Shown: positions 3,549 to 55,201 of the stretch, piece by piece
Position numbering within the stretch: the first letter of the stretch is position 1
Layout of the letters: each line of letters opens with the position of its first letter
Source: Sanghuangporus weigelae
Lineage: Eukaryota > Basidiomycota > Agaricomycetes > Hymenochaetales > Hymenochaetaceae
DNA: 64,000 bases
NCBI GenBank assembly: GCA_033182465.1
Contig: CP137319.1
Span: 2,604,001-2,668,000 of the forward strand
Reading direction: 5' to 3'
Program-made: the position numbers and the translations under genes
The notes under the pieces: generated by a model
Database searches by the model: none
What the model was told of the DNA's origin: nothing
The model's input: only the letters and a program-made list of their open reading frames with translations

Positions 3549-3828
3549 CTCGCTTTATTTAGCTGACTTTGGCTCTCAGATGAAGACCGGAAGCGTGTAG
3601 ATAGAGAGGTGATGCTTTGTGTGCATACTGCACCTTTTGAAGCTGTACAAACGAATAGCTACCGGGCGGCGTGTAAACTGCGACTTCCACGAATTCTGAG
3701 GAGAAGCCACCCGGCGTTCTACATTCTGCCCTCATTGCTTATCTTGAAGCTATATTCAAAACTATCAGTCAGCTTCATATCTACATAGAGAGTTGAAGCT
3801 CGCACCGAGCCCCGTCTTGCGCCCTATC
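3549..3828. promoter_or_regulatory. Shared upstream region of the permease and first PuuE-like gene
   Basis: These 280 bp separate two divergent start codons, so both promoters must lie here or overlap the genes. I see no clear TATA box. The region is the natural place to look for GATA-type nitrogen-control sites, but I claim no specific operator. Confidence 0.4.
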
Positions 3829-5093: not shown

Positions 5094-5364
5094 TTAGTAC
5101 TGGAATCACGTGGATGTCACATGTAGTTACAAAACTGAAATATAAGACGCGTTTTTCTCTGATATTAATTGAGAATGAGTGCTTATCAATGAACGCCTAT
5201 GTCAATTTTCGAGAAAGTTTTGATCGTCAATCGCTCATAGTGTCCTCCTGCGAACGATATAGCACTTTCTTCTAATACACCCGTGTTCCCCCCACAAGGA
5301 TTCCCGCGGTTGCTCGATGTTATCTAGGCTATTCTGAAATCATGGGCTCGTTCGGGACTCTACT

Positions 5365-7322: not shown

Positions 7323-7603
7323 TCTTTAGCTAAAGGACCTGACGAACCGTACGGATAGTGCTATAAGCCTGATATGTACAACATTGAATATCGATGCCTC
7401 CGTTTCAAATGCACGTAGATCCTTGCTGACTCTTTCACTTTATAAGAGAGTACGGATTCGTCGATAGCAAGACGTTATTCTTCTTGTTGAGAAGTCGAAG
7501 CTAGTACTTCGAAACGCGGGAAATAACGCCTCTTTTGATTCGTGAGTCCATATCATTTGACCACTTGAGACGTCTGGGTTCATCTGCTTGTCTGCTGTAC
7601 CCC

Positions 7604-9018
7604 ATGAGCTCTGAATCAACAACGTACAAGACGTTTATCCCACCCCGCGATTTCGTTGGGTATGGCTTTGAACAGCCGACTGATTGTTGGCCAAACGGAT
7701 CCAAGATCTGCATATCCTTCGTGCTAAACTGTACGTGCCTGTTTTCTCACTAGCTTGTGAAATAAGATTGAAATTCACTCTCTAGACGAAGAGTGAGCAG
7801 CGTTCTTGAGAACCACTGACTGTGCTCAAATATTTCCCAGAGGATCCGAACATACAGTATGGAATGGAGACAAGTGCAGCGAGGAATTGTAAGTAACGAT
7901 CAAATCCAGTGCTAATAGCTCATTTTGACGTATGTTGTCAGCCTACACGAGGTCCATTATCACCGATTACCGGCGGAAGGCAGACGCGACCCTATCGTGG
8001 AAAGCATAGTATGCCTGCTTATTGCTTATCTGCGATCTCATGCTTGACATCATCTACCGTTTAGTTTGAGTATGGTATTCGTCAAGGACTACCTCGAATT
8101 TTGAAGCTCTTCAAGAAGTTTGATTGGCCCTTCACTGTCTGGGCGAATGCACGCGCTCTTGGTATACTAAACTACGATTCCTGTTGGCCCGACAGTGTAC
8201 TGAAAGCCTCTTCTTTCCAGAGGTCACCGAGCCATACGGCAAGATCCTCCTTGAGCACGGGCATGAGGTTTGTCTCGCGTTTACGGCACTTATTCTATTT
8301 GATCAACGTGCGTTTCTAGATCGCCTGCCATGGTAATCGCTGGCGTAACACTGCGGACCTCTCGGGCCCGGACGAGGAAGCTGCGCATGTCAAGCAATCA
8401 ATAGCTCGTCTTCAGAAAGCATCTGGCCGACCCGACGTACCTAAAGGCTGGTTTCTAGGCAATGCATCTAATGCGCACAAGTACATACGCGCAAGAGTTC
8501 ACAAGGAAGCTGGTGTTCCACTTCTTTACTGTAGTGACACCTATGCGGACGACATTCCATACTGGATACCTTCTCCACTCACCTTGGATGGCGAAAAGGA
8601 CGAAGGGATGCTTATGATTCCTTATAGCTTGTATGCGAACTCATCACGAACACGTGCTCTCGGTCGTACTGATTCATTTTCCGATTTATTCTTCAGGACA
8701 AACAACGATCACCGGTTTATAGTTGCAAACGGAACAGGTGTCAGCGGTTCGCAAGACTGGTTTGATCTTTTGAAAGGTGACTTCGACGTGTTTTACGAGG
8801 AAGGTATGCAAGGCCATCCGAAACTTATGTGCGTCAACATGCACAATCGTTTGGTTGGGAAGCCAGGGCGAATAATTGCACTTAAGCGCTTCATGGAATA
8901 CATCAAGGAGAAGCCGGATGTGTGGGTCACGACGCGCGAGAAGATTGCGGAACACTGGCGAGAAAAATATCCATACGAGAAAGTGGGACCAACTCGCAAC
9001 ATGCACTACAGCGATTAG
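7604..9018 (+). CDS. PuuE-like polysaccharide deacetylase-fold protein, copy 2
   Basis: Eight exons (7604-7730, 7786-7792, 7841-7888, 7942-8008, 8065-8161, 8221-8267, 8320-8630, 8697-9018), 341 residues. Same family as the gene at 3829. Marks are FVGYGFEQPTDCWPNGSKI, VLNYEEGSEHTVWNGD, YGIRQGLPRILKLFKKF, GHEIACHGNRW, YCSDTYADDIPYW and YEEGMQGHPK. Exon 2 is a 7-base micro-exon that supplies the codons of the conserved YEE; joining exons 1 and 3 directly would create a stop. This copy keeps the His of ACHG but has RNTADL where copy 1 and the family have YIDY. No signal peptide. It follows the amidase on the same strand and ends 116 bp before the stop of the GMC gene on the other strand. Probably an amidohydrolase on a ring amide; the substrate is not readable. 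Confidence 0.9.
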
Positions 9019-11777: not shown

Positions 11778-12203
11778 AACAAAATCACAATCGAAGAATT
11801 GTAAGACCAACGTCAAACGAGATAAAGCGCAAACTTGTTGACTTGACGAAGGTCAGGAGATAACGATATGAATAATCTACTAAAAATAGATAATTCATCA
11901 CAGACAACCCAGAAATGCATCGTCCCCACCCAAAGACTGAATGGCCATTGAAGAGACTGTGACACTCGGCTTCTAAAGGTGTCGCGCACGCCCCGCATTG
12001 CCACACATCAGAAAGCATATTAAGCAAGAATAAAAAACTGACAAGCTTGAACAATATGAAAATCATCGAATATCTTTGGCGGGTCGCAGAATAACTTTTA
12101 ATCAGCAGCGGTTGCCTAGACTTAGAGCGGCAGCAATGCAAAACACGCAAAGAGAAAGACGATTGTGATTTTAAAATAGTCACGGAACATAAAGCACCGA
12201 TTC
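11778..12203. other. Intergenic: GMC promoter and left GH7 3' flank
   Basis: No coding signal. It should contain the promoter of the GMC gene and the terminator of the left GH7 gene, both on the minus strand. The sequence just after the GH7 stop differs completely from that after the right-hand GH7 gene, which fixes the outer edge of the palindrome within four bases of the stop codon. Confidence 0.5.
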
Positions 12204-13631
12204 TCAGTGTGCAAAGGTGGAACCGATGTCACCGAATTTGATGTTGGAAAAGACAACAGAAGCACTCGCACTCTGCGACTCAACCTGCGTCGGCTGCCCA
12301 GACGTCGTCGCACAGTTCCCCCGAGCCACTCCAGGGTTCGTCGCAGGAACGTCCGTCGGGTAGGCGCTGTCCAACCAGAGCATATTCACAGCATGGTCAT
12401 CCCACACGCTCATCACCAACGACATCCCGTTGTCGAACGCCGTGCCCATCTGCTTCAGTCCGCCGAGCGACTCGAACGTGTTCGTGTCACCGAACGCCTC
12501 CTTCTGAGCATTGCAGAACTCATCCGTGATCGAGTCGTACGCCGCCATTCCCGGAATGTTCACCTTCGAGTTCTGGATCACCCTCCCGTTCTGCACGTAC
12601 AGCCGCCGGATCTCCGACAGCGGGCCAGTCGTCGTGTTGTCCGCCGTCAGGAACTGTGTCACCACAGTGAACTTGGACCGCGTGTCCACCGTCATCCCCG
12701 GGCCGAGGAACGTTTTGTCGCCCATACGGAACGAGTTGAAGTCGCACCCGTCCTTGTCGCAGATGCCTTCGTAGCGCTCGTCTCCGTCGCCGCACTGCGT
12801 CCCCGAGCACCGCGTCTGGCTCTGCACGGAACATACGTGAGGTGTCACCGCAGCTGCCATCGAGTTTGCCTCCCACACGTCCATCTCATTACAGCACGAA
12901 CCGAACGTGCCCGATCCCGCGTTCGGATCGCTTGCCGACGCAGCCCAGCCCTCAACGTTTGCCTGAGCAGGGTATCAGTTTCTAACATGGAATAACAGAA
13001 AAGAGACAGATGTGCGTACCTCACCGTTGATGAACTTGATGTCGTGCGGACATTGCGTATCGCAGTATCCCGTTCCGAACCTCGCGCCAGCCTTGTTCGT
13101 CGGGAACCGTGCCATTCCACCGTCTGCATCCATCTCCACAAAGTACAGAGCTCCGTTGAGACCACATGGCAGGTTTGACATGTCGACATCGAATGTAAAC
13201 TCCTGGTTCTTCAGGTGGAACATCTGGTAGTGGCTCTGGTCTGCCATCAGGTACACGCGGGATCCGATGTTCTTCTGCTGTGACTGAGTCACGAACTTGA
13301 GCGTCAGCGCATTCCCCGATGTCGATATCCCGTACGTGCCAGCATAGTCAGCGCCATCGAGCGCGCAGTTCTGCGCACACGTCGCGCCGTCGGGGCAGAG
13401 AGATGTGTCCCAGGTGTTGCCGGTGTAGCAGTTCGTGTATCCGCTCGTCGTGTGCAACCAACGCCAGTTCGAGTCAAGGACGATGGACCGAGACTGAGTC
13501 GAGCAACTCCCGCTTCCAGTACATTGCTGAACAGACAGAGACGGATGGTTTTCCGCAGTGACCGTGCCCACTTGCTGGCCACGGACGACGGCAAGGAGGG
13601 TGAAACAGAGTAGAGTTGCGGCGGGGAACAT
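12204..13631 (-). CDS. GH7 cellobiohydrolase, left copy
   Basis: Secreted reducing-end cellobiohydrolase of glycoside hydrolase family 7, acting on cellulose outside the cell. Exons are 13020-13631 and 12204-12962 with a 57-bp intron; 456 residues. Residues 1-18 form a signal peptide ending before [12 protein letters not shown], the typical mature start. The catalytic motif [10 protein letters not shown] has the two Glu and the Asp in order (nucleophile, helper, acid/base). FINGEANVEGW spans the intron and the protein ends [14 protein letters not shown]. There is no linker and no CBM1, so it is a catalytic core only. The start is the ATG just before FPAATLL; an in-frame ATG 18 codons upstream would bury the signal peptide. 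The protein is identical to that of the right copy at 19327. Confidence 0.96.
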
Positions 13632-14593
13632 CACTTCGATAGACCGTAAAAGAAACCGATGTCGGTAGACCGATGATATTTGCAATGAGCCAAAGCGTAG
13701 ACTTTATATCAAAAGGACCGCGAAGTCATAAACGAAAACACGCAAATCGCTCTCTCGCTCCGTCTGCTTGTAGCCTCCAGAAGCAGTCTGGATCCTCCTC
13801 GGATGATGCGGCCTGGCCAACGTTACTCATACCGACGACTGTCCGCTCCCTCAAGAGGCGCGTCCGGGTGTGCAGTTACTGCGAAGGCGCAAGAACATTA
13901 AAGTTATATCTCGGCAGCTTCTGAAGGATCAATTCCCGCCACTCAACGCGACAATATCTCGGCCAGAAACGTCGCAAGCCTATTTTTGTGTACCAATATG
14001 ACTGTGGGATTGGCGCAAACTCCAGCCTGGCTCTACCATAGAAACCGCGGTACTCGGTCCCGGAAGCAAGAACACGTCATCACGTGGTCGTTCCTCTGCT
14101 GAATATTCGGCCATCATGGGTCTTCGACTTCGCAGACAGCGTTCTATATCGCCTCTGATGCATCCAGACTGATCACGAGCTTCTACAGATGTCGTAGCGT
14201 AGCTTGCTGCTTGCAGTGACGGAAACACTGCGACAACAAGCTGCCGACACATGCTCTTGCCACACTCATCTCACGGATCATTCTGCAAGGAACGAATAGC
14301 TTCTCTGACCGTTATTTCAAGACCTCTCGGCCCTGTTTCGGTGAAACAGTTTTTGAAGAAGCCTGGTCAGATCCGGCATTCCTTTTGTGAGTACGCAAAG
14401 ATGCACCCTGATTTCAGAGCCTCAAGTCCTCGATTCCGTTGTCCGCAACATTCTGAGGCCAAGTTTCTGAGCGGGAGTAACGCACACAGTATCCCGCTGG
14501 ATGGTTGAAGTAAGAAAGTTCGACGCATGGACTTGACTTGAAAAAGTTGAAGTTGCGAGAGGTGTTGACACGATCACGTGAGACTTTCTACCG
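13632..14593 (-). promoter_or_regulatory. Upstream region of left GH7 gene
   Basis: Mirror of 18364-19326. A TATAAAG lies at 13702-13708, about 70 bp before the start codon. Two CTGGAG hexamers that fit the Cre1/Mig1 catabolite-repressor pattern occur at about 13775-13780 and 14020-14025, and a CCAAT box near 14009-14013. Single hexamers are weak evidence. Open frames in this stretch are mirrored exactly in the right arm but have no recognisable domain. Confidence 0.5.
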
Positions 14594-15625: not shown

Positions 15626-17137
15626 TGAAAGGATCCGCTCAAAATCTCGCATCAGGATCGACGCGATCAACAGATCTACACAATCAGCTTTCCAAATGCG
15701 ACCAATAACCAAGCCAGCTATTACAGGCCCAAGCGATCGAGTGGCCTAGGCAACAGTAACCTGTCACCACCCGAGCGCTAGAAGTACCGAAGCGGATACG
15801 TAACCCCGCTAACAGCTAACACCACCGACCGCCTATTACCGCGGACTACCACTCTAACGCCGCCGACCAAGCAACCAGAGCGACCTCAATCAAAAGAAGC
15901 GATCAAACTTCTTAGAAGTCCAGAAGCACAACTACTGAAGCCTAAACACTAAAAGGCTAAAGGCTAATAAGGTTTATGGAGACCTCACTGGCATTTCAGC
16001 ACTGTCAAGTCTGTGCATGAGTTTACATGGTCCTTTATGAAGTATACTACATAGTATGCACGGCAACAGTTGGTATACGTGACTGTCACATCAAAACCGA
16101 GCAACACCTTCAAGATACAATGCATTCCAATCCACCAAACCCAATAATACCCAAGAAACGAGAGGAACTTATGATCACAACTCAGACCCCTCGAACTGCG
16201 AACCCGATAACCTGGAGAATGATTGGATGGTATAGACCGGAGTTGCACATACTATGTCCAGCATCTACGATACAGGCAAACCTTTATTTACCGAGAGATG
16301 CAAACCTGGAGACCAAGCAATTACAACTCCTTATACAACGAAGGATATGGCATTACATTCGAGATATACGATACGAAGGCAAAGCATGGCTAGTCACCAG
16401 AATTCAGCAGAACCCACTAGCAGCGCTTATGCAGTTCATGATATGCCTTGGACCATACTCTACACCGACCCGACACCTTAACACTGATGTGCGAGTTATG
16501 CTTACTCTCGCTAGACCTTGAGATGAATTCTGAAGAATCATATACCGAGCAGCCTACATCGCCCCAAGAGCAAAGATGCCACTCAATGACGGCAATGACA
16601 TTGTTATGGAGTACTGACAGTAGAGCAATCCATATCGAAGCACTACCTCTATTGTATCAGTTAGCAACTCTACAGAATTCTGTCATAGTGGAGACAACCT
16701 TACAAAGATTGGAGCAAAGTGGAGCAAAGTGCAGCAGGATGACAAAGGGACAGATGTAAGGGTGGAGAAAAGCGGAGTAAAGTGGAAACAGGATGAGTAA
16801 GAAATAGGACAGAAGATGGAATATCTGGGAGCATAAATAGCTGTAGGATTAGGCCCTCATTTCCCCATCTTTTGATCCTCTTAACACACTGGTGTAAAGC
16901 TTGCCCTATAGCGAGCTATTACTGTGTGCTTTGTACTATCACACCTCTTGGAAATCCCAATCTGCTTTACTATCACCTCGTATCTGGAAGCATCCATAAC
17001 TCGGACCGCGACTAGGAAGGCTAGTAAGGGACCGCGTGGTACAGCCAGACGTGGGTAGATAAGATCACCTCTGCACAACACACTGCTGCTTAGGCAAAAG
17101 GATCGAACTGGTGTAACCCCGGGCCTACTCCCTAACA
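15626..17137 (+). mobile_element. Family C solo-LTR-like element, copy C1 (fossil)
   Basis: A 1512-bp unit beginning TGAAAGGATCC and ending CCCTAACA, flanked by a perfect 5-bp direct repeat ATGGT at 15621-15625 and 17138-17142. TG...CA ends with a 5-bp duplication are typical of an LTR retrotransposon remnant reduced to one LTR. Two more copies of the same family lie at 53693-55201 and 59742-64000 (reverse). C1 is more diverged from these than they are from each other, so it is the older insertion. I see no reverse transcriptase, protease or integrase. Confidence 0.8.
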
Positions 17138-17142
17138 ATGGT

Positions 17143-18363: not shown

Positions 18364-19326
18364 CGGTAGAAAGTCTCACGTGATCGTGTCAACACCTCTC
18401 GCAACTTCAACTTTTTCAAGTCAAGTCCATGCGTCGAACTTTCTTACTTCAACCATCCAGCGGGATACTGTGTGCGTTACTCCCGCTCAGAAACTTGGCC
18501 TCAGAATGTTGCGGACAACGGAATCGAGGACTTGAGGCTCTGAAATCAGGGTGCATCTTTGCGTACTCACAAAAGGAATGCCGGATCTGACCAGGCTTCT
18601 TCAAAAAATTGTTTCACCGAAACAGGGCCGAGAGGTCTTGAAATAACGGTCAGAGAAGCTATTCGTTCCTTGCAGAATGATCCGTGAGATGAGTGTGGCA
18701 AGAGCATGTGTCGGCAGCTTGTTGTCGCAGTGTTTCCGTCACTGCAAGCAGCAAGCTACGCTACGACATCTGTAGAAGCTCGTGATCAGTCTGGATGCAT
18801 CAGAGGCGATATAGAACGCTGTCTGCGAAGTCGAAGACCCATGATGGCCGAATATTCAGCAGAGGAACGACCACGTGATGACGTGTTCTTGCTTCCGGGA
18901 CCGAGTACCGCGGTTTCTATGGTAGAGCCAGGCTGGAGTTTGCGCCAATCCCACAGTCATATTGGTACACAAAAATAGGCTTGCGACGTTTCTGGCCGAG
19001 ATATTGTCGCGTTGAGTGGCGGGAATTGATCCTTCAGAAGCTGCCGAGATATAACTTTAATGTTCTTGCGCCTTCGCAGTAACTGCACACCCGGACGCGC
19101 CTCTTGAGGGAGCGGACAGTCGTCGGTATGAGTAACGTTGGCCAGGCCGCATCATCCGAGGAGGATCCAGACTGCTTCTGGAGGCTACAAGCAGACGGAG
19201 CGAGAGAGCGATTTGCGTGTTTTCGTTTATGACTTCGCGGTCCTTTTGATATAAAGTCTACGCTTTGGCTCATTGCAAATATCATCGGTCTACCGACATC
19301 GGTTTCTTTTACGGTCTATCGAAGTG
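18364..19326 (+). promoter_or_regulatory. Upstream region of right GH7 gene
   Basis: TATAAAG at 19250-19256, 70 bp before the start codon. CTGGAG hexamers (Cre1-like) at 18933-18938 and 19178-19183, CCAAT at 18945-18949. The same elements exist in mirror image before the left copy, so the two genes should share control unless chromatin or the spacer differs. Confidence 0.5.
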
Positions 19327-20754
19327 ATGTTCCCCGCCGCAACTCTACTCTGTTTCACCCTCCTTGCCGTCGTCCGTGGCCAGCAAGTGGGCACGGTCAC
19401 TGCGGAAAACCATCCGTCTCTGTCTGTTCAGCAATGTACTGGAAGCGGGAGTTGCTCGACTCAGTCTCGGTCCATCGTCCTTGACTCGAACTGGCGTTGG
19501 TTGCACACGACGAGCGGATACACGAACTGCTACACCGGCAACACCTGGGACACATCTCTCTGCCCCGACGGCGCGACGTGTGCGCAGAACTGCGCGCTCG
19601 ATGGCGCTGACTATGCTGGCACGTACGGGATATCGACATCGGGGAATGCGCTGACGCTCAAGTTCGTGACTCAGTCACAGCAGAAGAACATCGGATCCCG
19701 CGTGTACCTGATGGCAGACCAGAGCCACTACCAGATGTTCCACCTGAAGAACCAGGAGTTTACATTCGATGTCGACATGTCAAACCTGCCATGTGGTCTC
19801 AACGGAGCTCTGTACTTTGTGGAGATGGATGCAGACGGTGGAATGGCACGGTTCCCGACGAACAAGGCTGGCGCGAGGTTCGGAACGGGATACTGCGATA
19901 CGCAATGTCCGCACGACATCAAGTTCATCAACGGTGAGGTACGCACATCTGTCTCTTTTCTGTTATTCCATGTTAGAAACTGATACCCTGCTCAGGCAAA
20001 CGTTGAGGGCTGGGCTGCGTCGGCAAGCGATCCGAACGCGGGATCGGGCACGTTCGGTTCGTGCTGTAATGAGATGGACGTGTGGGAGGCAAACTCGATG
20101 GCAGCTGCGGTGACACCTCACGTATGTTCCGTGCAGAGCCAGACGCGGTGCTCGGGGACGCAGTGCGGCGACGGAGACGAGCGCTACGAAGGCATCTGCG
20201 ACAAGGACGGGTGCGACTTCAACTCGTTCCGTATGGGCGACAAAACGTTCCTCGGCCCGGGGATGACGGTGGACACGCGGTCCAAGTTCACTGTGGTGAC
20301 ACAGTTCCTGACGGCGGACAACACGACGACTGGCCCGCTGTCGGAGATCCGGCGGCTGTACGTGCAGAACGGGAGGGTGATCCAGAACTCGAAGGTGAAC
20401 ATTCCGGGAATGGCGGCGTACGACTCGATCACGGATGAGTTCTGCAATGCTCAGAAGGAGGCGTTCGGTGACACGAACACGTTCGAGTCGCTCGGCGGAC
20501 TGAAGCAGATGGGCACGGCGTTCGACAACGGGATGTCGTTGGTGATGAGCGTGTGGGATGACCATGCTGTGAATATGCTCTGGTTGGACAGCGCCTACCC
20601 GACGGACGTTCCTGCGACGAACCCTGGAGTGGCTCGGGGGAACTGTGCGACGACGTCTGGGCAGCCGACGCAGGTTGAGTCGCAGAGTGCGAGTGCTTCT
20701 GTTGTCTTTTCCAACATCAAATTCGGTGACATCGGTTCCACCTTTGCACACTGA
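19327..20754 (+). CDS. GH7 cellobiohydrolase, right copy
   Basis: Exons 19327-19938 and 19996-20754, 57-bp intron, 456 residues, protein identical to that of the left copy at 12204. It has a signal peptide, the [10 protein letters not shown] catalytic motif and many Cys pairs, but no linker or CBM1. The two genes are transcribed outward from the palindrome axis. Being intact and identical, both should be functional unless a promoter is impaired. The 3' flank (from 20756) is unrelated to the left 3' flank, so the two transcripts can be told apart by their 3' UTRs only. Confidence 0.96.
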
Positions 20755-21020
20755 GCGTAGAATCAGAAAATACTACTTTTTCCCATTTCTGTCATTTTGT
20801 GTTTTAAGTGGTAGATCTCTAAAGTGATGTCGATCCAAACAAATGATTATCTATTTATGGATTACATGATTATATTGTCTCATCGGTTCCGACTATTACA
20901 TTACTAAACTGAACTGTGACCGGAAGCGGACGTCGCGTCGCCGCGTCTGTCGGGGTCTGGGTCTGCAATGGGCGTCAGGCGTAGTCGTCTTCTCAACGAG
21001 CGTTTGCACCTCCCTGCGTC

Positions 21021-26084: not shown

Positions 26085-28306
26085 CTAGTCCTCCCGCGGG
26101 ACATGAAATAGCGCGCAATTTGCGTTGTAGTGCCTCTTGACTTCTGCGTTAATCTCCGCACGCTGAGAAGATCGGACAATGAGGCCGCCGCAGGTATAAC
26201 AAAAATGGCTGCAGAGTTAGAGTTCGAATGAGCCAAAGCAGTATCGATGTAAGTGGGCATCACATACGTGTTGCAGCCTGGTGTTCCGCACTGCCCGATA
26301 CGTAAGAATAAGAAGTTTCTGATTATGCCTGTCACTTACGGTCATATGGTTGCAGCCTTCAGTCTTCTCTGTTGGTGTCTGACATCCAGGGCAATGCTTC
26401 CAACCCTGTCGAGACATAAGGTGATTGAGTTCCTCGCTTCCATCACAGGAATGAATAGGACCATCCGTCGATGTGGGAACTTCCTGTTGACAATCCTTGC
26501 ACCAAGAGTACGTGCAATCACGAAATGGACAAAAGAGAATTTTGGTCCGTTCAAATTCGCGCTTGTCCACAAAGGCACTTTGATTACATCTATTGAAACG
26601 AGAGATGATCAGTACTGCTCAAGTGACATGCCGAATGAACTTGCCTTCTGCAATGAATAGGCACAGAAAACTTCGAAATCTGAAGTTCATTGAAGATTGC
26701 ATACGCTCGTTCTGAGATCCCTATCTGATGGATCAGTGTGACCGAGACAGCTAAACCAACGACATAGTGAGCATCGTATCAGAAGCAGCAGTGATAGATC
26801 CACTACCTCCTACTCTTCCCCCATCGTTCGCGGTAGTACAGCACGGACATGGGATAGGGAACTTCCGCTCATCGAGCTTAGTAGAAATATATTGCCGAAT
26901 ACAGGCGCGGCAAAATGAATGTTCGCAGCCGTCGAGTCGAGCAACATCATCGATCGGGAGTTCGTCCACGCATATGCTACAGTCGAATGTTTCCTGCACA
27001 AGTGAAGCCTGCAAATATTGCAGCTGAGCTGCAAGCTCAGCTTCCTCGGCTTGAAACTCTAAGTGGGTCCGAATGGCTGTGTTGAAATCGTCCTCGTCTT
27101 CAGAATAGCGGGCTTTCTGTTTCCCCTTTGCGGAGTTGTGCAGGGACGGTTCATGCCACTGATGAGAGTGACCATCTTCCTGATATGACACGGAATCCGA
27201 TTTGGTTACTTGGATAGGATTATGATGGCTCGAGGCGAAGCCAGTCCCGTTCCTCATGGCCGAAGAATGCAGCTGCCATACACTGCTATCTGGTTCCAAA
27301 GCATGCTTGAGCCAGTATGGTTCCGCGTGATCTAGGAAAGGTGCAGCTTTTTTCCGTTTCAGCTCCTCCACCTGATCTTCGGCAAGACCTAGATCTTTCT
27401 TTAAGCGCTCGTTCTCGGAGGAAAGCATCATGCACTTTGAAGATGATTCCTTCTCTTGAGCCCTCGCAGAGAGAATGGCACAGCTTGCTTCCAGAAAGGC
27501 CTGTTCTGCGACTTGCGACATCCTCATGTCATTGTTTGAGCAAACGAAGAAGTGACCAGATACGTGAGCGAGAAGCTCAGCCTGCCACTGCAGGTCGCTT
27601 CTAGGACCAAGAAGATTCTCGTTAACCGGAAACAACCCCGTAAGATGGTCCACCGAGTCCTCGAGAGATGAGGAAAAGAAGAAAGCGGCACCGCCCGGAT
27701 GTGCTGGCCGAGGATGGGAATCAAATATAACGAATAAATCTTGCGGAACACGAGCAATCTTTAGGCATGAGACTATCTCGGGCGGACGGGTTATAACCAG
27801 CGCGCACGAGACGTCGCCGTCCCCCGCCTTGGAATCTTGGCATAGACGCCTATCAGGTGTTAGAATATTCATGACACCGAGCAAATTCAAACACTTGCAC
27901 GTACGAAAGCATGCTTTTGAATTGTGCTCGTCCAGCTCGGTCATAATTCGTCCGAATGAGTTTCAAGGATGTTTGGAAGAGCGGCGTTTTATAGATTTCA
28001 TCAACCTCAAGATGAGCATTGCTAGTCCATCGAGCGCAAATTGAGACTATATCCTATAGGACGATGACCATTAGTAATCGTCAGACAGATCGAACAACTC
28101 GCCTCCATTGTCTCACTTGACAGTAATTTCTCTATGAGCTCAGGTCCTACAGTTCCTTGCCTCTCGGATGAAAGTACGAGTCGAACGCAGTTCATTGCAG
28201 CCAACCCGCATGCAGAGGAAGATCCATCGGCACTGTATTGACTTGATCCTGCATGAGAACAAATATAACTGTCACCGCCGAATATGCGCTGTATTTCTGG
28301 AATCAT
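26085..28306 (-). CDS. RBR (RING-IBR-RING) E3 ubiquitin ligase with DUB-like N-terminal domain
   Basis: Transfers ubiquitin through a Cys thioester. RING1 at about 26790-26990 has CSIC, CEHSFCRACI and CPCC. The IBR follows at about 26400-26680 with CRRCNQ, CPFRDCTYSWCKDC. RING2 has CPGCQTPTEKTEGCNHMT, then across an intron CGTPGCNTHFCYTCGG. The first Cys after HMT is the expected catalytic residue. The last intron (GTATGTG to GCAG near 26200-26260) is needed to reach the natural end RHYNANCALFHVPRED. The N-terminal exons (about 27560-28306) contain SACGLAAMNCVRL and later VIFDSHPRPAHPGG: a Cys and an Asp-Ser-His in the spacing of papain-fold deubiquitinases. Between the two lies a short coiled coil (ENERLKKDLGLAEDQVEELK). 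Starts at the ATG at 28304-28306. It is divergent from the giant GTPase gene at 29024. Confidence 0.87.
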
Positions 28307-29023
28307 GAAGTAAAATCAAGCTGTTGACGAGCCCAGGAACGAACGCTCTTTTGTTGGTGTGCAGCGGTCAAGAAGAAAGGGAAGAAGACGTAAGACGAAG
28401 TAAAAGAGATCCAGACGCTGGACGTTGTGCCGCGGCGCTTAAGTTACATGAGGCTTTCGGCACTGTGACCCATACCAAAACACGCTTCAAATGGGATAAC
28501 TACGATAGCCGGTCCGTTATGAGGGGTTAAATCAAACTCCTCGCCTATCAGGAGATAACACACCGGGCAAAAACTCATTCCGCGCCCTTAGAAATTTTGA
28601 TCGGAACGGGTGAGCTCTCATCCGATTGGCTCTTTTTCCATTCTGGGTAACGTTTTCACGGTTCGGAAATGAGTTTTTGCCCGGTGTGTAAAGTAAACTC
28701 ACGCATCTACAAATAGTACACTTTAAGGTAACGATCACGTGAACCAGGCTGAACCTGACAGACCCTGACCAGCGCCTATCCAAGGTTCAACCTCTTACAT
28801 TCTTCCTTTAATGTGACGAGCGGAACGCGTTCCAGTGCTTCTGCACTGCATCTCATATCAGCATGTGTTGTTCTGGTATTAGGGGGTTGTGAAGAAATAG
28901 AGAGCGAGATGCCGCCTATCAAACTCGAGTCACTCGGCATATCTATCCATATATAAACGAATGTATTGGATTGTCAGAAAGGACGACTTTGTATCTCGTC
29001 GCAACATCCACTCGTACCCTCTC
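28307..29023. promoter_or_regulatory. Divergent promoter region, RBR and giant GTPase
   Basis: 717 bp between two divergent start codons. A strong TATATAAA lies at 28950-28957, 67 bp before the ATG at 29024. The ATG at 28961 lies only a few bases past the TATA box and would fall outside the transcript. A 130-bp MITE occupies 28559-28688. Confidence 0.6.
28559..28688. mobile_element. MITE with 21-bp perfect TIRs and TAA target duplication
   Basis: The two ends are inverted copies starting CACACCGGGCAAAAACTC; 21 bases match perfectly and similarity continues for several more. Direct TAA repeats flank it at 28556-28558 and 28689-28691. A 3-bp TAA duplication and short TIRs fit the PIF/Harbinger superfamily. 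It is 130 bp long and noncoding. It lies about 250 bp from the RBR start and 335 bp from the GTPase start, so it could affect either promoter or form a hairpin in a transcript. Confidence 0.85.
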
Positions 29024-32000
29024 ATGTCTAGCACGGCGAACATTGGCTTCGGTGAACCAATGGATGTCGACAAACTTAGACGTGACCCATCACAAGAATC
29101 GGACGATTTGTATCTTTCCGACTCCGATACCGAGTTTGCGGACGCTGAAAGTGACATCTTTGACGCCCCATTACCTATAGACGGCCAGGTTGGACCTGGT
29201 CGTGATGGATCGGAGGAAGGATCCTCAAGTTTCGACCCAGTCGAACCATCATCGTCTGCGCAGTCCTCCAGCATCGGAACGACACAAGAGACGCACTCCC
29301 TGCCATCGAATCTCCCTGGCAGGCAGTCGCACCCTGCGAACCAACACGACGAAGGCCCTAACTTTCCGAATGGGCAGGCAACTCAAGGAGACGATAGCTT
29401 CAATCGCAAACGATCGCTGGACCTTGTCGAAAATATCAAGGGTCTATACCGCATCCTAAACCTTATATCAGAGCAGGGAAGTGGCGGTCTAGGTCAGTCT
29501 CTTCTAATAAGCCCATCCGATTGGATGTACTAATGTTATCGCATGTAGTTGATAAGGTCATAATCGATCAGGAGTCGACCGGTCGCTTCATAAACGAGCT
29601 GTGTCCAGGTGCTTACAAGGACCTAACGAAAGTAGATTTCAAGGCTCTGGATGACGTGGACGTGAAGCCGGTGGGCGTTTATGGGAGCAAGTGCGAGATC
29701 GCCCGACTTCTTGGCGAGCAGGGTGTGCTTGACGATGAAACGTTCGTGTTTTATAACGTTTCATCGTCTTTGAGCCGAATTGATCTCACCTTTGCGTTAA
29801 ATAGAACACGCTTTCTGCTAATGCCACAGACTGAAGATTCATTGTCAATCTCACCATGCTTACAAGCTGGACTATACGCCCTTATTGTACCAGGAAATGC
29901 GACGCGCGAACGTCAAGTATTTGTCATATTCTGGCCGGAAGAAACGACTTGGGATGACAACGCAATTTCATCTGTTCGGCGCAATCGAATTACGTTCATA
30001 AAGTCAGTTCTCCCAAGTGATCTCGCCTTAGAAACATTGTCTCTCTGTTTCTTTTGTACTAAGTGGTTTACTAGGTACTTAACGAAAATTGTGGATCAAA
30101 TCGTAGCATTAGTATCCGAAGAACATGGCCGCGCTCTCGTTTGGGATGATCCAGACGACATTGATGACAACAACTCGTCCTTCGTGGACCTCGAAGAAGA
30201 CACTGATAGGCTTTTTGCGTTCGAAGTTTCGAAAGCCAGTGAGCAAGAAGAAAATGTCCGCATCTACGAAGGCATAAAGGTACGGAGTTCATGCCTGAAT
30301 CTATGCGCTTGAATGCCATTGACAAAAAGGATTATAGATCAATAATTCGCTTATCAGGAACGGCACAATGTCCAGGTTGGAGGCTACTGGCAAACCAGAC
30401 TCACAGAACGAGACTTATTTGGTCGGTGGGGATACGAGACAAGCGCTTCTAACCTCGGAATTCATACCTAGCCGAGACGTCAGCCATCGTTTAAACGAGT
30501 CATTAACGAATGTGTTTCAAGTGAAGGCTCGACTGTAAGCTATTCACAAAGTGTCTAACCACATATCGCATATTTAGTGTGCTTTCAGGTTTGACAAAGA
30601 CAGCAGTCTACGTCTCGGTACGGACATTTCTCGAAATGCGATTGCCCTGTTATTGCGGAATGGTCTGGCCGAGAGATACCCTGAGCCAGTCACGGCGTTC
30701 ATTGCACGAGAGAGAGAAATCGAGGAGCGCAGCAAGTGCGATAGACGATCGAAGAACGAAAGTATTAAACGAGACGTTGAAGCAACCGAGCCAGAACTTG
30801 TAGCTGCTGTCGAGACGCATCTGGTTAATTTGGTCTTAAGCTCGTATCCGTAGGTTGAATCAGTAGTCGACTACAGTTTACTGATGCTCTCGAAATATGC
30901 AATGATAGGAAACTTGATGAAACTATTTTGCGCGGTGGGAACGAATGTCGGGAAGGTATACAGAGTCACCCGGACGGTACGTCCGTTATTAATCGGACAG
31001 ACCGTCAAAACTTAAAACCCTGCAGCTTTTCTGAAAAACCTATTCGCCTTACATCCGACATTGCGACAAAAGATCGACGAGCTAGCTCCAATCGTCGATT
31101 TCACAACCATGAAATCCGAGGGTCGTGCGTTTACGAAGGCAATGAGGAAGATCGTCATCTGTGATCATTTATTTTCCCACAATGAACTTTCTGAAAATGA
31201 ACAGAAAATCGTCTGGAGTCTGGTGGAGTCAGGAGTGGAGAGCGGAGACTTGAAGGACGCTGAGAGATATCTGAAAGATGACAACGCGCTCGTCTTTTCG
31301 AGTATCGTGCGCGGAGTCAGTAAAATTGGTCGGAGCATCTGGACAGCCTCCGGGTTTTCGATACAGCACGACGGTCCCGTAAAGGAAGCATTGGAAGCTG
31401 CACGAAATACGAAATCTTCCGAGTTCTTTGATAAAGTTGATGACATTCTACAGCGTTGGCCGTTGCTTGAGACAGGTGTTCTGGAAGCTTTCAATGTTGC
31501 CCATGCGCATTTTGCCAACCGCATCGCCAGTGCATTGAGGACAATCCCTCATAGACTCATCCACGAGCAGATCAACCTTTGCAAAGATGCTCTGGAGAGG
31601 GAACTTGGGAAGAGCCTTCATCAGGAACAAGAATGCTCTCGTTCTCAATTACTTGCAGACATTGAGAAAATGCGATCCACGGAAGGATCTCGGTGAGTTT
31701 CAATGTGCTTCGTATTCCTCATAATTGACTTAGTGTTTTTTAGGCCGCAGACCACCATCCTTGAGGGACTGGAGAAGGAAGTCCCATATAGATACTGTAT
31801 GGCTCTTTCTCACCATACCGTATATGAGTGTTAACATTTTACTAGCATCATATGAGCGTTATCGAGTCAGCGGATGGATTTCTGAACAAACAGAACCAAG
31901 TATCAGATACAGCGTCCATCCTCTGGAATTGACCGAAGAGGACAAGCATCGTCTTAAAATGGATTCAACTTTCAATCCTCGACCAAAGGTCTCAGAACGA

Positions 32001-35000
32001 GGCACCTTTGGTTTCAGTCTTCCGATCGGTACATCCATTAGGTGCATTTAGTCACTCCGAGAGAGAAAAAAGAAAGGCTAAATTCTTAACGCCAGACTGA
32101 TACGACTTTTGCCAAATGATCAATGCCTTATCGTGGCCGAAGGGAATGATCGCGACCTCTTCGTATATATCGGCAACGCGAGTACTCTGGACTCGGCGAT
32201 CTCAGGGAAGCGCACAGCAAAAGTCATCAAGCGAGAAAAGACCGGTCAAGATATACTTTTGGCTTATGAGGAAGGCAAACGCACTCTCGTTGTCTGCGGC
32301 GTGGATGTGCAGAAGGTTCGTAGAAACATCGTCATCCCTCCGCGTTTATTCATGCAGCCTTCCCAGCCTCTGGTGCATGTCTATTATTTCGTTTTCGACG
32401 AAAAATACCAAACTCTATCAGCTCAGGGCAGTGCTATTAATTTAACAGCTTGGTATGCTTCAGACTTGCCCAGGATAACGGATGTCCTCGTCGTCAATAG
32501 TGGCGATGAGCTCGCTCTCGTAGAAGATAGCGGGAAAGTGCGAATCTTCTCAAATGTAACGCAACAATTTCGGTGAGCTGTCAGGTCGTGATGTCGTTTG
32601 CACATTACTCTTACTCGTGATTCACCGAAGGCCTGCTCATCTTCAACTCCCTTCAGCACCCATAACAACATTTGCTACGCCTGATGGTGCCTGCTTCGGC
32701 GCAATCTATGTACGAGATAACGAATCAATTCTGACGATGTATCACTGGGCATCACTGGGCTCTCATGAAGGATTCACTTTAAAAGTTGCCGACTCATTCG
32801 CCTTGCGACCGCTTGTCTCCGCTTTTGATGATCGAAAAAACGTGCATCTATTTACTCTGGATTCCAGTTCTGCGACTTGCGTGTCGATTAGAATCAGCAT
32901 TACCCGTCCAGTTACAGAATTTCAGTTTCGCGAAAAGCACAACCAAAGCTCCTCTGGCCAGGGCGAGAGACGAACAATTCACAACTCTCTCATTGATTGT
33001 CATTCCGACGTCTGGACTCGTTTCCCGGTGATCCCCGCGGTACAACGACAAACTATTGTGTCCAGAGAACGCAGGAAAGCGCGGTCGATACGATTCGTTA
33101 CGGCTTGGCAGACCCAGGTTCCCTTCAGAGCTTATTTCAAGGACATGATCCAAAAATTCGAAAAGAGCACAAAAAAACCCACTGGTTCTCTACTGAGCGA
33201 CACTGTCATTTCGACATGTGACTTCGCCTCTGACGATGCATTTTGGCAGGACACTTCTGTCTTCAAGGGTGGAGAATGGATTGTCGACATATTCTGCCTG
33301 ATTCCGATTCACATTGCAATAGCTCGGGACAATCGTTTTATTCCCCTGAAAGATGGCGTCTGGGCTCCTGAAGTGGAGAAATCCTTGTTAGGCGCTGACG
33401 TTGGACGCGTAGCAGATAGTTTGTCCTTTGGATGGTACGAGAGTATATTCCAATCGTACATGTCAACGAAGGTACGGCTATCGTGCGATATTCGCGACCC
33501 TTTGCTTACCTAGTTGATCGCAGAATGTGAAAGTTGTTTCATCGATGGGTGCATATTTCTTGTTCTTTCGCTTCAAAAATGACGCTTAGATCGCTATCTA
33601 TAGGGGAGCAATCGGTGGGGAAGAGTTTTGCTCTTAATCATCTTGCGGATACATCATTTGCGGGGTCAGCGATGCGAACGACGGAAGGTGTTTGGATGGC
33701 CGTCACCCCAACAGAAACAGATCTCATCGTAGCGCTTGATTTTGAAGGTTCGCCAAGTTTCATCGCACTCCACTTCCATGACTGAGACCTCCGCTTAGGT
33801 GTTCACAGCATCGAACGATCAGCTCAGGAAGATACGCTTCTCGTCCTCTTCAATGCTGCGATATCTAACTTGGTGAGTGACTGCACAGTCCACATAAAAT
33901 ATTACTTATTCGGTGCAGGTCTTGTTCCGAAACAATTTCGCACTCTCGCGAGACATCACTAATCTCTTCCAGAGCTTTCAATCATCATCTACAGTACTTG
34001 ATCCAGAGGCAAATAGGTCACTATTTCAGTCCACGCTGGTAATAATCATCAAGGTAAGAGATGATTTTTACTGATGGAAAGGAAAACTCTGACAGATACG
34101 CATATATCCAGGATGTTGTGGATTCTGATCGCATCGAGATCGCAAAGGAGTGCGTTTTATTGCATTTGACTAGATGCTCGATCTTATGTTGTTCCAGATT
34201 CAAGCTCAAATTACACAAGATTGTTCAAGAGGAACAAGGAGCGAACTTCATTACCCGCTTATATCGAGGTCGACTGGACATCATGCCATGGCCTGTCATC
34301 GAATCGCGTCAATTTTACACGCTTTTCACGACTCTGAAAAAACGTTTAGATGGCCAGGGCTCAACGCACGAGGGAGGCGGTGCATTCCTACATAAGCTCA
34401 AAATGCTCATGGCAAAACTGAAGGTGCGCACGCAAATCACTCAATACTGGTATTCGCAATAATCTTAGACTTATGAAGACAAACGATTGGGGCTCTCTGT
34501 CTCGTATGTCGATCATAATAATAAAGTCCATAAGCTGATCTTGTCTGCAGAGAATATGGCTACGCATAGAGCGCAGCATCTGCTATCTCTCTTGCCACGA
34601 GCGATGTCATTTGGTGCTACAGAGTTAGAGCCAGACGTCGAACTTCTCAAGGTATATTTAATCAAATATAAAACTGTCTCCAACTGACCGTACTGCCAGA
34701 ATTTCGACACAAATCTCGCAATAGAAAGCGACGATTCCAACGCTATTTTCTGGATTAACCAGTCAGACCGACCTCAGGCTGAGCAAAAGACTGCTGTCCG
34801 CAGTCTCATGCGTATGTGGCCGGACTTCGTGAAACGACATGAAGAGGTCGAAACAGAATGGATGGAGAAGCTTTGTTTGTACCTGCAGCAACTTGTTGAC
34901 AGACGCATAGCGCACGTCGAAGCGTGGATCGACTCCAATTTATCGCGGTTCAGGAGTAACAGTGCGGCTATCGAAGAACTCCGGAGAGCTCTGGATACAA

Positions 35001-38000
35001 AGACAGTGGAGATCAAGCGGAGCGTGCATTTGTGTAAGGCAAAATGCACCCAATGCCACCTCTTATGTGTCGGCGTTCAATTCCATGAAGACACTCATGA
35101 TTGCTCCACAAATCACCTTTGTCCAAGCTCGTGTCAATTTGTCGACGAGCACGATAATGAAGAGGATCCATGTTCACTGTCGTGCGTACTCCTTCCTTGC
35201 TCCTTTCAATGTGTCTTATATTATAATGAAGGGCTGGACACGAGGGACCTCACATGTAAGATCAGCCCGTTTCGGCATTTGTGTTTACCTTCGCTGACGG
35301 ACGACCGAAATAGGTGCGATCCTGCCGCTCACCTTTGCGGTTATCGGTGTGACTTGAACGAGCGGGAAGGTTGCGTAGGAAGTTGTACAAAGGTAGGTTC
35401 TCGGTTCCACCCCAATATTTGACTAACGCGATGTCATTCACCGAAAAGGTGGCAAGCCATCCAGAAGCCGGCCATATATGCTCCGCGCGTCGTCATTTGT
35501 GTGGAGAGGTATTATCATCCATTTGTCTTCGCCTTCCTCAGGACTGAAAAAAACCAATTGCCAGCCGTGTGAGCTGCGCGACGTGAGTGTACCTGGCGGT
35601 AAACCGTATTCCTGCCAAGGAACCTGCTCCGCTGCGTGGTACGTTAGAAATGCCCAATGACTTCTTATGGGAATTGAAGACGTCGATATAGGGACGAGGA
35701 GCACGATAGTCATGTATGCGGTGCAACATCGTGCCCAGTTACATGCCAGCTTTGCAAGAGACTGTGTGCAGCAGCTAACCACTTACATGGATTACATGCC
35801 GACGCGGTACATCTTTGCGGGTACGTGGATTCCCTAGGAGACTCGTGGCCATTGTCTAATACGCTCTGCAGCCAAGAGCATAAATGCAAGGAAGAATGTG
35901 CTAGTGACGGTGTCTGCGAGATAGACACTGTACCGCAGTCAATTGAGGCAACTTTCAGCGGGGCACATGATCGATTCCAGTATACGAAGGTACGTTCATA
36001 CTCATTATCCTATGTACCGCTGTCTCGTTTCTCATCTCGATTTTGAAGTACTCTCAAAGTACGTAGTTGATGTGCTATCTCGGTCTGCTATTAACCGCGA
36101 CTACAGAAACCAAGCGGCTTCCGTGTGCGATCTCTATAGGTTCTGGACTGATTACTCACGATGGACCGCACATTCATTCGACATCAGCAAGGATATTTCA
36201 TTTCTGTGATGCTCGGTAGGGAGCGCTGCTGATTTTCTTACCAGCTAATGCATAGTGACAAATGGTCTTTGCCAGATGCTCCAATTGTGACTATGTTTGT
36301 ACATTGCCATACCGTGCGTACCCTAACATATTCTATTCTGGTCACTCATGTGCCCTTTCCAGAGCATCCTCAACCTGAGCATTCTACGAATCATGGATCA
36401 ATGTCTCGGACCCGTTGGGTCGTAGATGGAAGCTCGCTTGAACTTGACGGCCACAAGTTTGGGTCTAACGATGATGGCGCGCCTATGCTTTGCAATCTCG
36501 TCTGTAGTGCTATGGGTCGTCACGCTCATATTGACTACTGTCGTGCTTCTGATCCCAACTCATGTAATGCACCGGAGGTAGATCATATCAGGACACGAAT
36601 CGATCCAAATCCTGACAGACCGAAAGACTGGATATCTCACGGTCTGTATTGGCGTCGGTTAGGATTCAGGGGTTAGTATGCTAATATATACTATGTTCAT
36701 TCAACTGACGCGCTTCTTTAGATCCATACTCCAGAGAGGAGCAAACTACGTTTGCTAAATGGTAAGTCATTCGTAGTCACAGCTATTTGTCAACGCAGTC
36801 TTACTTTGTACAAATTAGTGATGCGATGTGCTCGGGTATGTGACGACGTTACATGTATTATGCATAGACCTGAATATTCCACTGGGGCGTAAAGGTCCGG
36901 AACATCAGGAAACGGCAACCAATACCGCTCAGCCGTCATACTGTACTCTACCAATCTTCCATCCACGAGCCGTTCTTAGTCAGACTCCAGCTGGAGGTCA
37001 TGTTTCGGACGATGGACATGCATTTTCATGTAAAAACCCTGCTGTCTTGACGCAGGCGTTCCACGTGTGAGTAAGATTATTATGCACCTAATGGATGCTC
37101 ACTTACGCTTGCTCCAGGATATTTGCCATTGACAGGTCTGGATACTTTGCGAAAGCCAGGAGGTCGTGCATGCTGATCCTTTCTTTATCAGGTCTAGTTC
37201 GATGAGCATACAGGACAGAAGGCCTGTACCAACCTATCCGGCGTCCGCTAGGATCATGAGAACAGCAAACAATAGACTTGGTTCGGTATATTATGCACTA
37301 CACTCCTTCTGGTCAGCTCGGGCAACAGCAATGAATCAGGCCGGCGTTCAGAATAGACGCGATGCATACAGTGCTATACTCTTCAATGGCTTGGCAACGG
37401 AGGTTTACACCAATGACTTTAGCAGCGCACCTGATGTTCTGCTCGATAGCATCCTTAGATACTCTGCAGAAGGTGGAACCAATTTTTCCGCTGCTATTTC
37501 TATGGTGGAGCAAATTATGACGAGGCATTGGAGCACGGAAAGGTACACTTCTGCTACAGGCTGTCTCAAATATCCATGCTGAGAGGTGTCCAGGGCACCG
37601 GTCGTGATTTTCCTATCCGATGGGGAGTGTTCCATTGGGGACGACGTCGTGTATAGTCTTTGTCGAAAGGCTGTTAGCCTCGGGTTCGTTAGATTGTGAA
37701 GTGAAACGTTAACACTGTGACTTACGAAATTTTCAGACGGGCACTCTCCTTTCAGGCGGTTTCTTTTGGTCCGGACAGTTCCTCTACGTGGCTGCGACGC
37801 ATGGTCCAGATCGCTAAGGAAGTTCAGGATCGCGCACCTCGTGATCCTCTTCTCCCCGCAAGTGCAGTGGTGGGGTCTTCTTACAGCATCGCACTCGATT
37901 CAGTACGTGAGATCCTAGAGTCATTTTGTCCATCTTGCTGACGGTTGCGTTGATAGGTACGACTTGCCGAGACCTTCCTGGGCATTGCAGAATCGCTGAG

Positions 38001-38028
38001 GAAAACACGAGGTGGACTGATTCGTTAA
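29024..38028 (+). CDS. Giant GBP/VLIG-like GTPase with Cys-rich region and C-terminal vWA domain
   Basis: One gene of about 9 kb and some 30 small introns. In order: an acidic low-complexity N-terminus (29024-29480); helical and beta-rich regions of unknown fold (29550-33500) including LIRLLPNDQCLIVAEG and a run that resembles repeated blades; a GTPase domain from about 33550 with P-loop SSMGEQSVGKSFALNHL (joined across an intron near 33550-33610), TTEGVW, DFEG as the G3 motif, and TLVIIIKDVVDSD as the G4-like motif (34030-34120); a helical region; a Cys-rich region (35030-36600) with repeated CxxxC and CxxC groups such as CKAKCTQCHLLC; and a von Willebrand A domain (37110-38028). The vWA MIDAS reads FAIDRSSSMS across an intron at about 37136-37190, followed by FLSDGE near 37610. 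It ends ESLRKTRGGLIR. The architecture is that of large fungal VWA proteins related to interferon-inducible very large GTPases. The cellular role is unknown. Confidence 0.85.
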
Positions 38029-38873
38029 GAAACTGGCCAGTTTGAGGAGCTCATGAATGACGTTGGTCTTATATCAGTACTGTCGATATTTGGTATTTGT
38101 ATGCGCCGTACCCCAATTGTATGTTGTACGTAGTGAGCACACAATTGAATGGATTTGTAATGCAGATATTGCTCCTACGAGCGATTGTGGATCAATACTT
38201 AACACACATCGGATCCAACAAGTTTTGTGGTATGCGGACTTTCTTTTCAAAATCAATCAATCTGTTGTGTAGTCCCTACGTCGTCGCCTACGATCGTCGA
38301 ACAAGAAGAAACATATTCTGAAAGGTCCGACATATTTCCGTCCATCCCTATCGCAGAGGCAAGTAATCATGAACTGCGGTGGTGGAGTCTTCTTATGATA
38401 TATATTGCACTCGATTCAGTATGTGAGGTCCTCGAATCATCTTGCTGATGGTGAAGTTGGTAGGTAAGGCTTTCCGAGACTTTCCTAGGCATTGCACAGT
38501 CGCTGAGGAAGCCACGTGGTGGACTTATACGATGAAGGAGGGAGGTTAGAGGAGAGGGAATCCTTTGCTATTGCTATGAGTGGAACCATGTTATGTAATA
38601 TACGCATATTTTTGATTGCGGCAATTTCCGGAGAAACGTGAGGGAATCTCGACTTCATCAATCACATCACTCACCTGCCTGCGTCTGCCCCGATGCCCTT
38701 GTACCATATCCATTTCTTAAATATTCAACTATCTCGACCTAGGAGACCTATCTGACTTTGTCTGCGTCTGCGACAACCACTTCCAGAAGTACTTTAGGCG
38801 ATCCCCGCGTAGAAGTCCCCATCGCGGCCCAGTAATTAGTCTGGGCTCACATTTGTTGGATCCAGACAGACAA
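38029..38873. other. Intergenic with decayed tail copy
   Basis: Contains the 3' flank of the giant gene, a decayed copy of its last exons (listed separately), and the promoter of the Kre9-domain gene. No other coding region recognised. Confidence 0.5.
38375..38537 (+). pseudogene. Tandem decayed copy of the last exons of the giant vWA gene
   Basis: Reading on the same strand, this stretch repeats 37865-38028: GTGGGGTCTTCTTA, GCACTCGATTCAGTA, CATCTTGCTGA, GAGACCTTCCTGGGCATT and GGTGGACTGAT all recur in order with scattered changes. It includes the final intron. It lies about 350 bp after the true stop and has no upstream vWA sequence, so it is a partial tandem duplication left behind after unequal exchange. 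It is unlikely to be translated. Confidence 0.8.
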
Positions 38874-53692: not shown

Positions 53693-55201
53693 TAAAAGGA
53701 TCTGCTCCAAATCTTGCATCAGGATTGACACAATCAGCTTTCCAAATGTGACTGATAATCAAGCCAGCTAACACGGGCCCAAGCGATTGAGCGGCCCAGG
53801 CAACAGTAACCCATTACTACCCGAGCACTAGAAGCACTGAAGCAGATACATAATCCCGCTAACAGCTAACACCACCGACCGCCTATTGCTGCGGACTACC
53901 ACTGTAACACCGCTGACCAAACAACCGGAACGATCTCAATCAAAGAAGCGACCAAACTTCTTAGAAGTCCAGAAGCACAACTACTAAGGCCTAAACGCTA
54001 AAAGGCTAAAGGCTAATAAGGTTTATGGAGACCTCACTGGCATTTCAGCACTGTCAAGTCTGTGCCCGAGTTTATATGGTCCTTTATGAGGTATACTACA
54101 TAGTATGCATGTCAACCACTGGCACTCGTGACTGTCACATTGAAACCGAGTGACACCTTCAAGATACAATGCATTCCAATCCACCAAATCCAGTAGTACC
54201 TAAGAAACGAGAGGAACTCATGATCACAACTCGAACCCCTCGAACTGCAAACTTGATAACTTGTAGAATGATTGGGTGGTATAGACCAGAGTTGCACACA
54301 CCATGTCCAGTATCTACAATACAGGTGAACCTCTACTTACCGAGAGATGCGAACCTGGAGACCAAGCAGTTACAACTCCTTATGCAACAAAGGATATGGC
54401 ATTACATTCAAGACATACAATACAAAGGCAAAGCATGGCTAGTTACCAGAACCCAGCAGAACCCGCCAGCAGAGCTTATGCAGTTCATGATATAACTTGG
54501 ACCATACTCTACACCGACCCGACACCTTAACACCGATGTGCGAGTTATGCTTACACTCAATGGACCTTGAGATGAATTCCGAAGAGTCACATACCGAGCA
54601 GTCTACATCACTCCAAGAGCAAAGATGCCACTCAATGACAGCAATGATATCATTATGGAGTACTGACAGTGGAGCATTCCACATCGGAACACCACTCCTA
54701 TTGTCTCAGTCAGCAACTCCACAGAATTCTGTCATAGTGGAGACGACCTTACAAAGATTGGAGTAAAGTAGAGCGAAGCATAGCAGGATGACAAAGGAAC
54801 AGATGTAATGGTGGAGAAAGGTGGAGAAAGGTGGAGAAAGGTGGAGTAAAGTGAAGACAAGATGAATAAGAAATAGGACGGAAAATGGAATATCTGGGAG
54901 CATAAATAGCTGTAGGATTAGGCCCTCATTTCCTTATCTTTCGATCCTCTTAACACACTGGTGTAAAGTCCTAACCAGACTATTACTATGTGCTTTGTAT
55001 TATCATGCCTCTTGGAAATCCCAATCTACTTTACTATCACCTTGTATCTGAAAGCATCTATAACTCGAACTGTGACTAGGAAGGCTAGTAAGGGACTACG
55101 TGGTACAGCCAGATGTGGGTAGATAAGATCACCTCTGCACAACACACTGCTGCTTAGGCAAAAGGATTGAACTGGTGTAACCCCGGGCCTACTCCCTAAC
55201 A
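53693..55201 (+). mobile_element. Family C solo-LTR-like element, copy C2 (fossil)
   Basis: 1509 bp, flanked by the 5-bp direct repeat TGGAC (53688-53692 and 55202-55206), inserted in the left arm of D. It ends CCCTAACA like the other copies. It holds a short tandem run of GGTGGAGAAA at 54811-54850. Closer to C3 than to C1. Confidence 0.8.
54811..54850 (+). repeat. Short tandem repeat (GTGGAGAAAG)n
   Basis: Three perfect 10-bp units followed by a degraded fourth, inside C2. The same place in C1 and C3 has fewer or more degraded units, so the run grew after the copies separated. Confidence 0.85.

Follow-up and report, generated by a model that had tools for sequence, protein, structure and literature searches.

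Two genes stand head to head in the genome of the basidiomycete Sanghuangporus weigelae, and they are probably two separate genes of recognisable classes that happen to face one another, one of them (gene A) a predicted ubiquitin editor and the other (gene B) a predicted intracellular GTPase scaffold. Based on motif, residue spacing, domain fusion and copy number, gene A reads as a member of the VTD-RBR family, which has already been described, and gene B has the sequence hallmarks of a little-described GTPase of the GBP class that is equipped with Cys/His-rich and vWA arms.

The locus and its gene models

The window, i.e., the whole stretch of DNA that was analysed, covers 64,000 nucleotides (C2:2604001-2668000), and the genome in which relatives were sought comprises 33.9 Mb in 13 contigs. 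GH7 and Zn2Cys6 domains (Pfam) are present in the window, as are short introns, all in keeping with a fungus, and the VTD-RBR fusion, known from Agaricomycetes, points to that class. The first-pass annotation had described a divergent pair with outer ends at 26085 and 38028 and a gap of 717 bp, and splice-site curation reproduced both the strands and the coordinates. Both genes are intact and intron-rich, and their spliced models are open throughout:

26085-28306, minus strand: gene A, VTD-RBR, 7 exons, 625 aa (splice curation, finder score and exon-wise self-matches in the genome search)
28306-28117, 28046-27905, 27849-26807, 26750-26645, 26589-26340, 26290-26268, 26208-26085, minus strand: exons of gene A
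28307-29023: intergenic region between both start codons, 717 bp
29024-38028, plus strand: gene B, encoding in 38 exons a giant GTPase/Cys-His/vWA protein of 2337 aa (splice curation and finder score)

All 37 introns of gene B are GT-AG and have lengths of 46-72 nt, and one of the six introns of gene A is GC-AG. The uncurated gene finder scored gene B at 253.5, against 15.8 for the best of 20 dinucleotide shuffles and 14.5 for the opposite strand, and gene A at 80.1, against 19.7 and 13.0, respectively; as the codon table of the finder was partly trained on long open frames of the window and its loci, these shuffle comparisons are not fully independent, and their margin is wide. The length of gene B depends on the choice of exons (2275-2494 residues including the stop in uncurated runs), and exon edges are uncertain in places within its N-terminal half. 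The first uncurated model of gene B was dropped, since the G1 motif of the GTPase had been spliced out of it.

Gene B is single-copy: queries with its GTPase and Cys region, its vWA domain and residues 127-1300 returned 6, 3 and 8 matches from the genome, respectively, and all of them were at this locus. The same search with gene A returned gene A itself and two distant RBR places, at 26% and 30% identity, and with B single-copy and A having only these two distant relatives, the genome offers no second A-B pair for comparison. Introns weigh on profile searches of the raw genome. The IBR profile produced nine matches at five loci and missed gene A itself because introns split the domain, and the Pfam GBP model had no match at the locus in a search that detected none of 14 controls, introns splitting the domain here too. 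Viral contigs scanned with parts of gene A contained 12 pattern-matching stretches, none of which encoded a relative, and those scanned with parts of gene B contained a single such stretch, with no relative encoded.

A remnant of the gene B 3' end lies downstream of the gene:

38372-38531, plus strand: decayed duplicate of the gene B 3' end, in three blocks 82-88% identical to 37860-38024

This decayed tandem copy is a sign of past duplication, and querying the genome with the DNA of 37600-38600 revealed no additional copy.

Elsewhere in the window, an inverted duplication (12203-14593 / 18364-20755; 2392 aligned bases, 99.9% identity, arms ~3.8 kb apart) has a GH7 cellulase gene on both arms, one of which was checked with Pfam and gave the match, and could reflect very recent copying, a pair undergoing active conversion or an artefact of assembly. 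Dispersed repeats of ~1.3-1.5 kb that are 88-93% identical (15678-17141, 53728-55204 and 59741-61058), one of which sits between the GH7 arms, are perhaps transposon remnants. The region 1363-9015 holds a cytosine/purine/allantoin permease on the minus strand (133.4 bits for 2088-2885, Pfam) together with an amidase (100.8 bits); a frame resembling a polysaccharide deacetylase stays below its cut-off (16.9 against 23.1), and the region is possibly a nitrogen or purine-use cluster.

Gene A: a predicted ubiquitin ligase fused to a VTD-type domain

Gene A had been annotated at first pass as an RBR ligase with a DUB-like domain, and both parts of that description were borne out, the one by RING and IBR matches above the Pfam cut-offs and the other by the presence of C33 and D154-S155-H156. 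The ligase half is located as follows:

26085-26860, minus strand: RBR module with RING1 (from C401), IBR and RING2 with GCNHMTC (C573), extent approximate (Pfam, ARIH1 alignment)

Three Pfam families were matched in this half, zf-C3HC4 at 24.7 bits (cut-off 21), IBR at 27.4 (24.3) and IBR_2 at 31.5 (27). ARIH1 aligned to it from RING1 through RING2 (query 4-197 of 229, E 3.8e-6), and the best of 35 solved sequences was the RING2 of parkin (E 2.3e-7). The RING1-IBR-RING2 order that defines an RBR protein is present together with a RING2 cysteine, found in GCNHMTC at residues 572-578, and we take this residue, C573, to be the catalytic Cys of RING2.

The other half of the protein is as follows:

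27620-28306, minus strand: deubiquitinase-like (VTD-type) domain, N-terminal ~225 residues, extent approximate (motif positions, and the family description in PMC9741609)

Its sequence contains C33 within SSACGLAAMN and, further along, D154-S155-H156, i.e., the catalytic Cys and the Asp-x-His motif by which VTD proteins are recognised. The spacing between C33 and D154 is 121 residues, identical to the Cys-Asp spacing (C319-D440) of Wc-VTD1, whose residues are given as C319, D440 and H442 in the text of PMC9741609 and as C313A in one of its figure legends. In that paper (Erven 2022, PMC9741609), the Asp-x-His motif is reported to be invariable in VTD deubiquitinases and is not exclusive to them, UFSP2 and ATG4 also using D-x-H; fungal VTDs are described as quite unlike those of viruses and transposons, K6-specific cleavage is shown for two fungal members, and the VTD-RBR protein is found once per genome in most sequenced Agaricomycetes. 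The Agaricomycete proteins named there, Serendipita indica PIIN_06337 and Serpula lacrymans LOC18815922, have the same D-x-H motif, the same fusion to an RBR and the same one gene per genome as gene A, and in a comparison by description, rather than by alignment, no difference from gene A was seen. A literature search with the Serendipita gene name found PMC9741609 as the sole paper.

A single-sequence search with the N-terminal 227 residues of gene A against solved structures gave nothing at E up to 10, though VTD structures have been deposited, and Pfam likewise returned no family for the DUB-like domain at E up to 1. Because solved structures gave no match, the VTD assignment is based on the motif, the spacing and the fusion. 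Since the D-x-H motif, the 121-residue spacing, the fusion and the single copy all agree with VTD-RBR, the family to which gene A would belong is one already described.

The intergenic region and the head-to-head arrangement

The space between the two start codons contains a mobile element:

28559-28688: 130-bp MITE-like element, perfect terminal inverted repeats, TAA either side (repeat arms, genome copies, flanks)

The 717-bp gap is, therefore, partly an insertion, and subtracting the element together with a single flanking repeat leaves 584 bp. The terminal repeat, with at most one mismatch, was found 66 times in forward and 62 times in reverse orientation (0 and 0 for a reversed control), from which a family of ~64 copies in the genome is estimated. 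Of 70 candidate copies, 40 were scored, and the 40 long matches, counting the copy in the window, were 97-100% identical, the others being 97-99% identical to that copy; such high identity among copies suggests that the insertion is recent. Four copies were inspected on both sides and were flanked by TAA in two cases, TTA in one and TTT in one; such 3-bp flanking repeats fit a Tourist-like MITE.

The adjacency of A and B is probably incidental. With random orientation, one quarter of adjacent gene pairs are divergent, and the window itself has a second close divergent arrangement, in which the minus-strand permease gene, roughly modelled at 1363-3548, is opposed by a rough model on the plus strand that starts at 3829. 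A functional link between the two genes is possible, and the adjacency is the one fact in its support, a weak one.

One form that such a link could take is a shared bidirectional promoter, from which A and B would be co-expressed without having a pathway in common. The divergent orientation across 717 bp, or 584 bp once the transposon and one target-site repeat are subtracted, agrees with this, but random orientation would leave one in four adjacent pairs divergent, and we regard a shared promoter as fairly unlikely. Within the portions of the literature drawn on, an intergenic region of 767 bp is given in work on a bidirectional promoter of Trichoderma (PMC9604776), whereas anti-correlated and independent cases are also noted elsewhere (PMC7012866).

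It is distinctly unlikely that the pair forms a defence or self/non-self module, in which A would mark or unmark a target with ubiquitin and B, as an assembling GTPase, would be recruited to it in the manner that GBPs follow ubiquitin in macrophages. The two genes adjoin, 717 bp apart, and this adjacency and the analogy with animal GBPs make up the entire case for the module; against it, B is single-copy and A is of a type that occurs once per genome in most sequenced Agaricomycetes, and a gene held once by most of them seems less like a fast-changing self/non-self locus. In addition, Pfam reported no NLR-type or HET domain in A or B, and the terms GTPase, dynamin, ubiquitin and GBP had 0 occurrences in the searched text of two reviews, one on fungal immunity (PMC10197012) and one on fungal cell death (PMC12881547). 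A broader version, in which an ancient module kept by Agaricomycetes would unite an editor of K6-ubiquitin with a giant scaffold of the GBP class in cell-autonomous defence, as the fungal counterpart of the ubiquitin-guided GBP immunity of animals, is highly improbable.

Gene B: a giant GTPase of predicted GBP class

Three regions were delimited in gene B:

33524-34700, plus strand: GBP/Sey1-class GTPase region, extent approximate (Pfam GBP, SEY1 and GBP structure matches, motifs)
35015-37060, plus strand: Cys/His-rich region from ~residue 1658, no known family (Cys+His count)
37056-38028, plus strand: C-terminal vWA domain with D-x-S-x-S (2111-2115), T2208 and D2238 (VWA_2, motif positions)

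The GTPase region has a G1 motif, GEQSVGKS, at 1305-1312, followed by TT at 1330-1331, DFEG at 1350-1353 and KD at 1422-1423, a set of intact GTPase motifs. With residues 1285-1665 as the query, the Pfam GBP family (PF02263) was matched at 27.5 bits, above its cut-off of 21.1, over residues 9-85 of 381. The best raw score was that of RHD3, at 37.0 bits, which is below the RHD3 cut-off of 42.4, and URGCP_GTPase reached 21.7 bits (E 9.4e-05), far under its cut-off of 55. Five weak matches to solved structures, confined to residues 11-96 of 381, were with SEY1 (E 0.0034), GBP2 (0.0044), GBP1 (0.012) and, twice, GBP5 (0.029 and 0.055).

The proposal from the first-pass annotation of a giant VLIG-like GTPase with a vWA domain can, thus, be kept in part. 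The large GTPase and the vWA domain are both supported by Pfam, but the VLIG label is too narrow, because the URGCP score is far below its cut-off while GBP passes, and gene B is better read from its sequence as a GTPase of the GBP/Sey1 class. True membership of the VLIG/URGCP family, to which gene B is alike in its great length and in the weak URGCP_GTPase match, can be given almost no weight when that match is so far under its cut-off and GBP is above its own, when gene B is divided into 38 exons and vertebrate VLIGs have a giant coding exon, and when it carries a vWA domain, which to our knowledge is not known in VLIGs.

The two nearest classes each share something with gene B and each differ from it. 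With the GBP family, of the dynamin superfamily, it has in common a GTPase domain above the Pfam cut-off, but its GTPase is embedded in 2337 aa that also include a vWA domain and a Cys/His region, and a Pfam search of pieces covering gene B reported no C-terminal helical GBP domain at E up to 1. The Sey1/RHD3 GTPases supply both the top raw Pfam score and the top solved match, but gene B stays under the RHD3 cut-off and has another architecture and size. Like gene B, DdGBP of Dictyostelium is a GBP-class protein that occurs singly outside the animals; the part of its description drawn on here (PMC5758549) mentions neither a vWA domain nor a Cys/His region.

Beyond the GTPase, residues 1661-2140 hold 77 Cys+His (window sums along the protein), and Pfam gave nothing for this Cys/His-rich region at E up to 1; NF-X1 zinc fingers, a candidate for it, were rejected on that result. 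The vWA domain scored 35.4 bits with VWA_2 (cut-off 27) and 24.2 with VWA (cut-off 23.8), and its site is complete, with D-x-S-x-S, T and D, which we take to be the MIDAS motif; its matches to solved structures were weak only (E 0.21 and 0.83). Pfam likewise gave nothing for residues 1-860 at E up to 1. A mere impression of a beta-propeller between residues 850 and 1230 was not retained, the sole Pfam hint being Vps16_N at 12.8 against a cut-off of 23.4. Structure predictions for single exons had a mean pLDDT of 31.9 (exon 11) and 39.0 (exon 10) and were set aside. No description of the gene B architecture was present among the literature matches listed, which consisted of titles and the starts of abstracts, with most subscription journals outside their scope.

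Predicted activities and their significance

With A and B taken as two separate genes, we infer from the domains what each protein would do, including its activity, bound metals, assembly and location in the cell. The RBR half of gene A would accept ubiquitin from an E2 on C573 before handing it to a substrate, and the thiol protease at the N-terminus (C33, D154-x-H156) would cleave K6-linked chains, an activity reported for two relatives in fungi. The product of gene B would probably act as a scaffold inside the cell, its GBP/Sey1-class GTPase dimerising or assembling on GTP and its putatively metal-binding Cys/His region and metal-dependent vWA domain serving as protein-binding arms.

A term search of the reviews PMC10197012 (fungal immunity) and PMC12881547 (fungal cell death) found no mention of proteins of the GBP type, and gene B is a candidate for GBP-type function in fungi. 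Gene A appears to combine, within one chain, a writer of ubiquitin and an eraser of K6.
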